A stretch of 64,000 nt of DNA from positions 1,054,001 through 1,118,000 of the forward strand of contig NZ_LT827021.1 of NCBI RefSeq assembly GCF_900169505.1. Direction: 5' to 3'. The notes under the pieces are model-generated. The model saw nothing but the letters and a program-made list of their open reading frames with translations, searched no databases and was not told where the DNA came from. Below, piece by piece: positions 40,330 through 44,932 of the stretch. The position numbers and the translations under genes are program-made. The DNA comes from Arabiibacter massiliensis (lineage in GTDB: Bacteria; Actinomycetota; Coriobacteriia; Coriobacteriales; Eggerthellaceae). Each line of letters opens with the position of its first letter. The first letter of the stretch is position 1.

Positions 40330-40333
<4 letters not shown>

Positions 40334-41373
40334 GCGAGAACATCGCAGCCGGCGCATCCGCGCAGGCGGACGCGCCCGAGCAGGATATCCTGCTCGACGT
40401 CCAGCACCTCACGAAGCGCTTCGCCGCCGAGACGAACTTCTTCGGCCGCGCCACGTCCTACGTGCAGGCCGTGGACGACGTGAGCTTCCAGATCCGCCGC
40501 GGCGAGGCGTTCGGCCTGGTGGGCGAGTCGGGCTGCGGCAAGACCACCGTGGGCAAGATGCTGGTGAACCTGCTTCGGCCCACGTCGGGCACCATCGTGT
40601 TCGACGGGCACGACCTCACGGCCATGAAGCAGGCCGAACGCAAGCGCTACTGCAAGGACATCCAGCTGATCTTCCAGGATCCCTACGCGTCGCTCAACCC
40701 CCGCATGCGCGTGGGCGACATCATCGCCGAGCCCATCATCACGAACAACATCCTGCCGAAGGACCAGGTGGAGGACCGCGTGAACGACCTCCTGGAATGC
40801 GTGGGCCTGGCCAACTACATGCGCAACCGCTACCCGCATGAGTTCTCCGGCGGCCAGCGCCAGCGCGTGGGCATCGCGCGCGCCCTGGCGGTGAACCCGA
40901 AGCTCATCGTGTGCGACGAGCCGGTGAGCGCGCTCGACGTGTCCATCCAGGCGCAGGTGCTGAACCTGCTCGACGAGCTCAAAGAGCAGTTCGGGCTCAC
41001 GTACCTGTTCATCGCGCACGGCCTGAACGTGGTGAAGCACGTGTCCGACCGCGTGGGCGTCATGTATCTGGGCAAGATGATGGAGATCGCGCCGAAGAAG
41101 TCGCTCTACGCCGATCCGCTGTCGCCCTACACGCAGGCGCTGCTCTCGGCCATCCCGTCGGTCGACCCGGCCACGAAGCGCGAGCGCATCATCCTGGAAG
41201 GCGACGTGCCCTCGCCCATCGACCCGCCGGCAGGCTGCCGCTTCGCCGGCCGCTGCTTCGCGAAAGTCGAGGGCTGCGACGAGGTGATGCCCCCGCTCGT
41301 GGAGGTGAAGCCCGACCACTGCGTGGCCTGCCACCGCTACGACGAAGGCGGCCCCGGCACGGCGAAGATCTAA
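40330..41373 (+). CDS. dppF: peptide ABC transporter ATPase DppF
   Basis: The 347-residue partner ATPase has Walker A ([10 protein letters not shown]), [15 protein letters not shown], the signature [15 protein letters not shown] and Walker B ([13 protein letters not shown]). The C-terminal CRFAGRC...C motif also has cysteine spacing suited to a cluster. It is coupled to dppD through ATGA. A strong intrinsic terminator ends the operon. Confidence 0.93.
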
Positions 41374-41382
41374 GCAACCCCC

Positions 41383-41416
41383 AAGGGCCCTCCCCGCAAC
41401 GGAGGGCCCTTTCTTT
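41383..41416 (+). terminator. intrinsic terminator of the dpp operon
   Basis: An 11-bp stem (AAGGGCCCTCC and its complement at 41401-41411) with a 7-base loop is followed by TCTTT. Confidence 0.85.
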
Positions 41417-41731
41417 ATGACGCAGGGCGTGACAGGGGGACGCAGGACGGGGGTAATGTCATCGCTCTGGGGTCGGTGCAGAAAAAATCGAGGGTTTTGG
41501 CAAAACGGAGCGAATATGCACTGGAAATCGCCCGTCCGGGCACCTCTGATGCCGAGCTTCTGAGGAAAACGCCTGATGGCGAAATCCGATGCACCTAGGA
41601 ACGGGTGCATATGCGTTCCAAATTGCCAATCCGGCTGCAAAATCGTGCATCGGGCATCTATCGCAGGGCGGCGCGCCCTGCGGGGCCGAAGCGGCGGTCG
41701 CGCTATCTCGCTGTGGATGAGACGATTACCC
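41417..41731. other. gene-free stretch before the adapter-like sequence
   Basis: These 315 bases have no supportable gene. A diverged inverted pair (around 41490-41510 and 41605-41635, sharing atatgcac and ttggcaa) hints at a decayed inverted-arm element. Because an adapter-like segment follows, the right part of this stretch may be low-quality assembly. Confidence 0.4.
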
Positions 41732-41809
41732 CTGGCTCTTATACACAACTGACGCCGCCGACGAAGGGTTAGGGGTGGATGATGGGGGGGGCCGCAAGGT
41801 TCAAAAAAA
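41732..41809 (+). other. probable Illumina Nextera adapter read-through (assembly artefact)
   Basis: Positions 41732-41750 match the 19-base Tn5 mosaic end as read through (CTGTCTCTTATACACATCT) with two mismatches. 41751-41764 matches the adjoining 14-base Nextera read-1 tail with one mismatch. After 8 bases in the index position (41765-41772), 41773-41801 match the P5 flow-cell sequence in 17 of 29 positions, with 8 of the 12 mismatches being G. A run of A follows (41803-41809), as in reads that run off the end of a fragment. The match is from memory of the published adapter sequences. The join between left and right flanks is therefore unproven. Confidence 0.9.
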
Positions 41810-41923
41810 CAAGAAGCCCAGGGCCAGGCGCGAGGCGTTGCTCTGCGAACCGCTCTACCCACATCTCAGACTCTGGCACGCCCTCCCCGATCGAAAACAG
41901 GCATCCGACGAAAGGCAAGGCAT

Positions 41924-44900
41924 ATGGATCTCACGCCCCAACAGAAGCTGCACGGGTTCACCGTGCGCACGCGCGAGGAGCTGCCGGAGATCGACGGCAC
42001 CGCCTACGTGCTCGACCACGACAAGAGCGGCGCGCAGCTGCTGTATATGGCCAACGACGACGCCAACAAGGCGTTCTCCATCGCGTTCAAGACCCCGCCG
42101 GCCGACGACACGGGCGTGTTCCACATCCTGGAGCACTCGGTGCTGTGCGGAAGCGACAAGTTCCCCGTGAAGGAGCCGTTCGTGGACTTGCTGAAGAGCA
42201 GCATGCAGACGTTCCTGAACGCCATGACGTTCCCCGACAAGACGATGTATCCCGTGGCCAGCACCAACGACCAGGACCTCATGAACCTCACGGACGTGTA
42301 CCTGGACGCGGTGCTGCACCCGGCGATCTATCGCAAGCGCGCCATCTTCGAGCAGGAGGGCTGGCACTACGAGCTGGCGGCCGACGTGGAGGCCGATGCG
42401 GGCGATTCCATCGCGGGCGACATGGTGGCCGCCACCGAGGCGGCGGACGGCAGCGCGCGCCTTACGCTCAACGGCGTGGTGTACAACGAGATGAAGGGCG
42501 CGCTGTCCGACCCGAATTCGGTGCTCTACGACGCGCTGGCGGCGGCGCTCTTCCCCGACACGGCCTACCGCTTCGAGTCGGGCGGTACGCCGCGCGCCAT
42601 CCCCGACCTCACCTACGAGCAGTTCCTGGACGAGCACGCGCGCCACTACCGCCTGAACAACAGCTACCTCACGCTGTACGGCAACCTGGATATCGACCGC
42701 ATGCTGGCGTTCCTCGACGAGGCCTACCTCTCCCCCGTGGCCGACGAGGAGGCTGCGCGCGACCAGGCGCGGGCGCACAACGGCGAGGCGCCGCTTGAGC
42801 CCCGCACGCTGGAAGCGCAGGCGCCGGTGAAGAACCTCGACGTGGTGCGCACCATGGTCACCGCGCCGGAGAACGCGTGCGCGGGCCTGGCCTTCGTGGT
42901 GGGCCCCGTGGCCGACCGCCGGCGCGCCGTGGCGGCCGACATCCTGGTGGACGCGCTCATGGGCTCGAACGAAGCCCCGCTCAAGCGCGCGCTCTTGGAC
43001 GCGCGGCTGGCCGACGACGTGGAGGCCTACCTGGAGACGTCGGTGCTGCAGCCGTTCGCCGTGGTGCAGCTGCGCGGCCTGGCCGAGGGCGCGATGGAGC
43101 GCTTCCGCCCCGCGTTCGAGGACGCCGTGCGCGACCTTCTGGAGCAGGGCATCGACCCGGCGCTTCTGGAGGCGTCGCTGTCGAAGGCCGAGTTCGTCAT
43201 GCGCGAGCACGACTTCGGCACGGCCGACGGCGTGGTGCTTTCCATGACGGCGCTGTCGGGCTGGCTCTACGACGACGATCTGGCCACATCCTACCTGAAG
43301 TACGAGGATGACTTCGCGTTTCTGCGCGGGGTGCTGGACGAGGGCTACTTCGACGACCTGGCGCGCGAGCTGTTCTTGGAAAACAGCCACTGCGCCCAGG
43401 TGGAGGTGCGGCCCGTGGACGGCGACGAGGAGGCCTTCGAGGAGGAGCGCCTGGCGGCGGCCGAGGCGGCCATGGACCCGGACGACTTCGCCCGCGTGGC
43501 CGACGAGGAGGCCGAGCTGCGCCGCTTGCAGACAGAGCCCGACTCGCCCGAGGCGCTGGCCACCCTGCCGCGCCTTTCCGTGGCCGACATCGGCGCGGCG
43601 CCCGAGGAGCCCGCATACGGCCTGGTGCCGGACGCCCCCGTGCCGTGCCTGCGCCACGACGCGCCCACGCGCGGCATCGCCTACGCGTACCGCTACTTCG
43701 ATCTGGCGCGCATCCCGTTCGAGGAGCTGCCCTACGTCGCCGTGCTCGGGCTCGTGCTGGGCAAGCTGGGCACCGCGCGCCGCAGCGCCTCGGAGCTGGA
43801 CACGCTCATGAACGGCAAGCTGGGCAACCTCTCGTTCTTCGCCGAGATCTACGAGGACGCCGACGACCCGGAGGCCCTGGCGCCGAAGCTCGTAGCCAGC
43901 GCGAGCGCGCTCTCGGAGAACATCGACTGGCTGGCCGGGCTGCCGCGCGAGGTGATGCTGGAGACGGACTTCTCCGACACGGGCAAGATCAGAGACGTGC
44001 TGCAGCAGCGCCGCATCGCCATGGAGCAGGGCTTCGCCTCGGCGGGCCACACGAGCGCCATGGCCCGCCTGTCGTCGTACTACCTGCCGGCCGGCGTGGT
44101 GCGCGAGCAGCTGGGCGGCGTCGGATTCTACCGGTTCCTGAAGGGCCTGCTGGCTTGCTTCGACGAGCGCGCGGACGAGCTGTCCGCAAAGCTCGAGGAC
44201 CTGGCGCGGCGCCTGTTCTGCGACGACGGCGCCGTGGTGAGCTTCACCGGCTCGGACGAGGACTACGCGCGCTTCTGGGAGGCCGGCGGCGTCTTGGGCC
44301 GCGAGGGCGAGGGCGGCGGCGAGGCGCGGCTCGTCGTGCCCGCGCCTGTCGTGCGCAACGAGGCCTTCGTCGTGCCCACCGACGTGTGCTACGCCGCGCA
44401 GGGCTTCGACCGCCGCGCGTTCGGCGCGCCCTACACGGGGGCGTGGCAGGTGGCCGCCAAGGCGCTCTCCTACGACTACCTGTGGAACGAGGTGCGCGTG
44501 AAGGGCGGCGCGTACGGGGCGGGCTTCCAGGCGGCGCGCACGGGCACCCTGCGCTTCTACTCGTACCGCGACCCGCACCTCGACGAGACGCTGGCGCGCT
44601 TCGCCGGCGCCTCGGCATGGCTGGCCGCGTTCGACCCCGACCCCGACGCGATGGACGGCTACGTGGTGAGCACGGCGGCGGGCTTCGACACGCCGCTTAA
44701 GGCGCGGATGCTCGTGCGCCGCCAGGACGGCGACTTCTTCGGCGGGCGCACGCCCGAGAGCCGCCTGCGGACGCGCCAGGAGATCGTGGAGGCCGACGCG
44801 GCCGCCGTGCGCGCGCTCGCGGCCCCGGTGGCCGACGCCGTGCAGGCGCAGGCCGTCTGCGTGTTCGGCAACCGCGACATCATCGAGGGTGCCGCGACCG

Positions 44901-44932
44901 ACCTCGACGTAGTGGACCTGCTAGCCGAGTAA
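41924..44932 (+). CDS. M16C (presequence-protease-like) zinc peptidase
   Basis: A 1002-residue cytoplasmic metallopeptidase of the insulinase superfamily, subgroup M16C. The inverted zinc motif HILEH is at residues 67-71 with Glu70 catalytic, followed by SVLCGSDKFPVKEPFVDLLK. The distal zinc ligand is expected in VVYNEMKGALSDPNSVLYD. The C-terminal half repeats the fold without the motif. Such enzymes enclose and degrade free peptides up to about 70 residues, which fits its place beside a peptide importer. No signal peptide is present. The ATG has an AAGGCAAGG site. The upstream region contains the adapter artefact, so its promoter cannot be read. Confidence 0.92.
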   Translation: MDLTPQQKLHGFTVRTREELPEIDGTAYVLDHDKSGAQLLYMANDDANKAFSIAFKTPPADDTGVFHILEHSVLCGSDKFPVKEPFVDLLKSSMQTFLNAMTFPDKTMYPVASTNDQDLMNLTDVYLDAVLHPAIYRKRAIFEQEGWHYELAADVEADAGDSIAGDMVAATEAADGSARLTLNGVVYNEMKGALSDPNSVLYDALAAALFPDTAYRFESGGTPRAIPDLTYEQFLDEHARHYRLNNSYLTLYGNLDIDRMLAFLDEAYLSPVADEEAARDQARAHNGEAPLEPRTLEAQAPVKNLDVVRTMVTAPENACAGLAFVVGPVADRRRAVAADILVDALMGSNEAPLKRALLDARLADDVEAYLETSVLQPFAVVQLRGLAEGAMERFRPAFEDAVRDLLEQGIDPALLEASLSKAEFVMREHDFGTADGVVLSMTALSGWLYDDDLATSYLKYEDDFAFLRGVLDEGYFDDLARELFLENSHCAQVEVRPVDGDEEAFEEERLAAAEAAMDPDDFARVADEEAELRRLQTEPDSPEALATLPRLSVADIGAAPEEPAYGLVPDAPVPCLRHDAPTRGIAYAYRYFDLARIPFEELPYVAVLGLVLGKLGTARRSASELDTLMNGKLGNLSFFAEIYEDADDPEALAPKLVASASALSENIDWLAGLPREVMLETDFSDTGKIRDVLQQRRIAMEQGFASAGHTSAMARLSSYYLPAGVVREQLGGVGFYRFLKGLLACFDERADELSAKLEDLARRLFCDDGAVVSFTGSDEDYARFWEAGGVLGREGEGGGEARLVVPAPVVRNEAFVVPTDVCYAAQGFDRRAFGAPYTGAWQVAAKALSYDYLWNEVRVKGGAYGAGFQAARTGTLRFYSYRDPHLDETLARFAGASAWLAAFDPDPDAMDGYVVSTAAGFDTPLKARMLVRRQDGDFFGGRTPESRLRTRQEIVEADAAAVRALAAPVADAVQAQAVCVFGNRDIIEGAATDLDVVDLLAE

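Follow-up and report, generated by a model that had tools for sequence, protein, structure and literature searches.

An untrimmed Nextera adapter tail assembled between dppF and an M16C-type peptidase gene in the Arabiibacter massiliensis genome

Positions 41732-41809 of the window, the 64,000-nucleotide stretch of the Arabiibacter massiliensis genome analysed here, are an assembly artefact and no biological feature. With a probability of roughly 0.98, they are the 3' tail of an Illumina read whose Nextera fragment was so short that sequencing continued past it into the i5 adapter of the read, the P5 end and a poly-A run; this tail would have stayed untrimmed owing to its errors and been assembled into a thinly covered gap that separates dppF from the M16C-type peptidase gene. 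The stretch could be mistaken for the end of a mobile element or for a regulatory region, and is instead a matter of data quality. This assembly should not be relied on for the sequence upstream of the M16C gene. Elsewhere in the genome, the same fault gives a U32 peptidase and a penicillin-binding protein the appearance of broken genes.

Table 1. Features of the dppF-M16C interval, in window coordinates
Feature	Position	Strand	Evidence or remark
dppF-like ABC transporter ATPase, left neighbour	40330..41373	+	ABC_tran and oligo_HPY
Tn5 mosaic end of the Nextera adapter	41732..41750	+	17/19 bases
Nextera read-1 (i5-side) tail	41751..41764	+	13/14 bases
i5 index octamer AGGGTTAG	41765..41772	+	1 mismatch to the reverse complement of S508, as we take the index table to read
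P5 flow-cell sequence, degraded	41773..41801	+	17/29 ungapped; G at 8/12 mismatches
Poly-A run after adapter end	41803..41809	+	seven A
Probably unreliable sequence, from the adapter to the first by-eye resemblance to relatives	41810..41900	+	suggested by the missing motif of the relatives
M16C-type peptidase, right neighbour	41924..44932	+	M16C_assoc and PreP_C; open frame of 1002 aa

Adapter blocks at the site

A first-pass annotation had read 41732-41764 as the Tn5 mosaic end joined to the Nextera read-1 tail, at three mismatches in all, followed by an index-sized gap of 8 bases, a G-biased match to P5 at 17 of 29 positions and a poly-A run. Both its coordinates and its mismatch count for the first block were right, and a base-by-base comparison confirmed the positions and counts of the blocks that follow. 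At a threshold of three mismatches, 41732-41764 was the sole match in the window to the 33-base mosaic end and read-1 tail, from which it differs at exactly three bases, and the pattern was found in 0 of 100 dinucleotide-preserving shuffles. The adapter letters on which these block identities are based (mosaic end, tails, P5 and P7) are those that we take to be the Nextera sequences, and S508 (i5) and N705 (i7) are named from what we take to be the index tables.

The blocks downstream of the tail bear out the same identity. The index octamer is one base off AGGCTTAG, the reverse complement of S508, and the next-best index has four mismatches. A P5 fit of at least 17 of 29 was reached by 8 of 100,000 shuffles of the 29-mer at 41773-41801, which is separated from the poly-A run by a single C. 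If the S508 index is assumed, 37 of the 51 bases after the mosaic end match the i5 adapter. Every block at 41732-41809 therefore stands in the order and spacing of the Nextera (XT) i5 adapter, from which the site differs by its three mismatches in the first 33 bases and by its degraded, G-biased P5 block, as would be expected of a low-quality read end. A second adapter in reverse orientation 3' of the poly-A run is not claimed, since local alignment of the reversed i5 and i7 adapters to 41803-41900 was no better than background (equalled by 1988 and 2000 of 2000 background pieces, respectively).

Adapter copies and apparently broken genes elsewhere in the genome

The genome is a single contig of 3,377,915 bases with a completeness of 100, and the named loci closest to its M16C protein point to the family Eggerthellaceae. 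It holds 10 copies of the 19-base mosaic end at up to three mismatches, every one with exactly two, and no match to a reversed mosaic-end control pattern. By the bases that follow them, six of these mosaic ends are of i5 type (tail matching at 9-14 of 14 positions) and four of i7 type (9-14 of 15). At 8 of the 10 sites, fewer than 1% of 3000 background pieces did as well as the sequence after the mosaic end; these pieces came from the window and may include the site itself. The two exceptions, L111 and L112, did not rise above background and have tails of 11/14 and 9/15. The P7 sequence was found at three places in the genome, one of them at 24/24, and the i7 tail with its index (CCGAGCCCACGAGACGGACTCCT / GGACTCCT) likewise at three, one of them exact. 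The nine further mosaic ends, like the one-base distance of the octamer from the S508 reverse complement, go beyond what had been annotated before.

The octamers at these sites agree to a large extent. Four of the five i7 octamers were nearest to N705, with 0, 0, 2 and 3 mismatches (two exact), and four of the six i5 octamers were nearest to S508, with 1, 2, 2 and 3 mismatches; at L111, L112 and L114, the last with a tail of 14/14, the octamer was nearest to neither. Because the indices are largely shared among the adapter sites, one library with one index pair explains the octamer pattern better than a natural element does.

Two of the other sites interrupt genes. At 2360709-2360969 (L114/L118), two adapters on opposite strands point at each other, one an i7 tail with P7 and 12 A and the other an i5 tail, and the 170 bases of filler between them have 45% G+C vs 68% in the flanks. 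The insert splits a penicillin-binding protein gene: one side matches positions 1-136 of the 299-position transpeptidase profile and the other side positions 172-298, which leaves 35 profile positions matched by neither. At 2965816 (L116), an identical run of 17 genomic bases stands on either side of the adapter insert, which splits a U32 peptidase; U32 and DUF3656 are matched ahead of the insert, and U32 is matched once more past it in a different frame. From one 17-base copy to the other the shift is 82 bases, exactly the frame offset of the two halves of the peptidase, whose apparent break is an assembly fault. Both sites look like contig ends that each ran into adapter and were then joined. 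A Pfam scan for gene breakage, which covered seven of the nine other mosaic-end sites (L110 and L112-L117, with L108 and L111 left out), gave a clear break at L114 and L116. No split was shown at the five remaining scanned sites, where different families were matched on the two sides of the adapter (L112, L115), a match was found on one side only (L113, L117), or an ABC transporter domain lay on both sides (L110).

Rival origins, gene order and the spacer

The mosaic end by itself would suit the natural end, or a relic, of an IS50/Tn5-like insertion sequence. Positions 41732-41750 share 17 of 19 bases with CTGACTCTTATACACAAGT, which we take to be the natural IS50/Tn5 outer end, and thus have two mismatches to it, the same number as to the engineered mosaic end. 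However, 13 of the next 14 bases fit the synthetic read-1 tail, the index, P5 and poly-A follow in order, and other copies in the same contig carry the i7/P7 adapter. Nor is there a DDE_Tnp_1 match nearby: in a search for this one transposase family, the sole match in the genome was at 2543538, about 1.4 Mb off. A transposase between two inverted ends, the arrangement of an IS50-like element, was not found in the roughly 550 bases between dppF and M16C. The synthetic tail, index and P5, together with the i7/P7 copies, rule out a Tn5/IS50 relic for practical purposes, and we regard it as highly improbable. Even less credence is due to a laboratory Tn5 mutant, in which an engineered transposon would truly have inserted into the genome of the sequenced strain. 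Such a mutant would account for the presence of a mosaic end, but the interval from dppF to M16C holds no more than about 80 foreign bases, with no transposon body or marker, and mosaic ends occupy ten places in one genome. To our knowledge, P5, P7 and sample indices are not expected in an engineered Tn5 transposon, which also counts against this origin.

A further alternative accepts the adapter and holds that it joins two contigs that do not adjoin in the real chromosome. This would resemble the two other sites at which adapter lies at apparent contig-end joins (L114/L118 and L116). The gene order was compared across the loci of 80 relatives, retrieved with the M16C protein. An upstream dppF was not seen in 71 of the 80 loci, many of them distant or cut short, a count that would also suit a false join; among these are three rather close relatives (L031, L035 and L046, all 74% alike) whose loci extend 4 kb upstream. 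However, nine of the 80, including the first three on the list (L028, L029 and L030), have dppF ahead of M16C on the same strand. The dppF and M16C matches are about 260-440 bases apart in L028, L029, L034, L037, L056, L065 and L067, and about 1.8-1.9 kb apart in L030 and L032; the spacing in the window is about 550 bases. Many of the nearest relatives thus have this order, though it is not universal, and its presence in nine of the 80 loci makes the order in the window credible. A false join is therefore very unlikely, if less remote than either transposon origin, and the earlier proposal that dpp and M16C are perhaps not adjacent in reality is unsupported.

The companion proposal, that the sequence between the two genes may be missing or wrong, is upheld by the 78 foreign bases and by the absence of a motif shared by the relatives that have dppF in front of M16C. 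This motif, TT(A/G)TGNGANAAT, is perhaps a promoter. It was found upstream of M16C in 14 of the 77 loci that extend 160 bases or more in that direction (L028-L037, which are the first ten on the list, and L056, L061, L065 and L067). Its absence from the other 63 of the 77 weakens the argument, but all nine loci that have dppF in front of M16C contain it. Random 160-base pieces contained it in 43 of 20,000 cases. When 13 relatives were left out in turn, their motif scores were 12.2-22.3 bits, and shuffled 200-base pieces had a mean best score of 0.1 and a highest score of 8.4 bits. The window reached at best -1.1 bits within 41724-41923 and 3.9 bits within 41374-41923; the motif is missing there.

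The right limit of the wrong sequence can be placed approximately. A blastn comparison of 41374-41935 with the 80 relatives' loci gave one short match, at 41422-41461, so that the end of the wrong stretch cannot be fixed by alignment. By eye, the roughly 23 bases before the M16C start codon resemble those of L033 and L034. This resemblance close to the start codon and the missing motif suggest that the wrong sequence probably reaches to about 41900.

Repeats also lie in the spacer on the dppF side of the adapter. In a repeat search in which 40 of 156 candidates were scored, a 25-base word at 41439-41463 recurred at 11 other places in the genome with 94-100% identity; six of these copies form three opposite-strand pairs whose partners are 41-46 bases apart, and another two form a pair about 400 bases apart. 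The 180-base stretch at 41469-41648 has a 74% copy at 1766924. Dispersed intergenic repeats at 41439-41648 could explain a weak assembly here.

Probable route into the assembly, and adapters in related genomes

The preferred explanation, an untrimmed adapter tail, would involve the following events. An Illumina read from a short Nextera fragment would run past the insert into the i5 adapter, P5 and poly-A, and sequencing errors in the adapter tail would allow that tail to escape trimming. The finding of exactly two mismatches at every mosaic end suggests that the trimmer would have taken out copies with no mismatch or one mismatch in the 19 bases. A gap-closing or contig-joining step may then have used the untrimmed tails that remained, and in this way the tail would have entered the assembly across the thinly covered gap from dppF to M16C.

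The i5 and i7 patterns, at up to three mismatches, were searched for in 396 sampled genomes of the class. The i5 pattern occurred in nine genomes, the A. massiliensis genome and eight others, with 13 matches (none exact; one, two and three mismatches in 1, 7 and 5 of them, respectively), and the i7 pattern in three, with four matches, none exact. One or the other adapter was thus present in 11 of the 396 genomes, A. massiliensis included, and 0 of the 17 copies were exact. For the eight other i5 genomes, one locus apiece was read. In three of these the contig ended within 20 bases of the adapter tail, and in five an octamer was followed by P5 at 10, 13, 17, 19 and 25 of 29 positions, the first of these being a weak fit; nominal P5 fits of 29/29 for L123 and L128 and of 28/29 for L129 came from empty or truncated comparisons at contig ends and were not counted. 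The octamers in the other genomes were ATAGAGAG, TACTCCTT, TCTTACGC, GCTTACGC (twice) and AGTGTATA, and they vary between genomes as sample indices would.

The A. massiliensis site resembles adapter contamination of public assemblies in that adapter lies at a join or gap, both adapter ends occur in one genome, and the index is near-constant within that genome and replaced by other octamers in other genomes. It differs in lying inside a one-contig genome, where no contig end marks it. The adapter read-through put forward by the first-pass annotation is strongly supported: the whole i5 layout is in order, more i5 and i7 copies occur in the contig, and their indices are largely consistent, with others in other genomes. 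It is likely that embedded adapters with one to three mismatches are left behind systematically when trimming and screening are exact or near-exact, and that they flag concealed gaps and genes falsely shown as broken in finished-looking reference genomes. The Nextera adapters in the ten other genomes of the class (L121-L123, L125-L129, L134 and L135) were either embedded or at contig ends.
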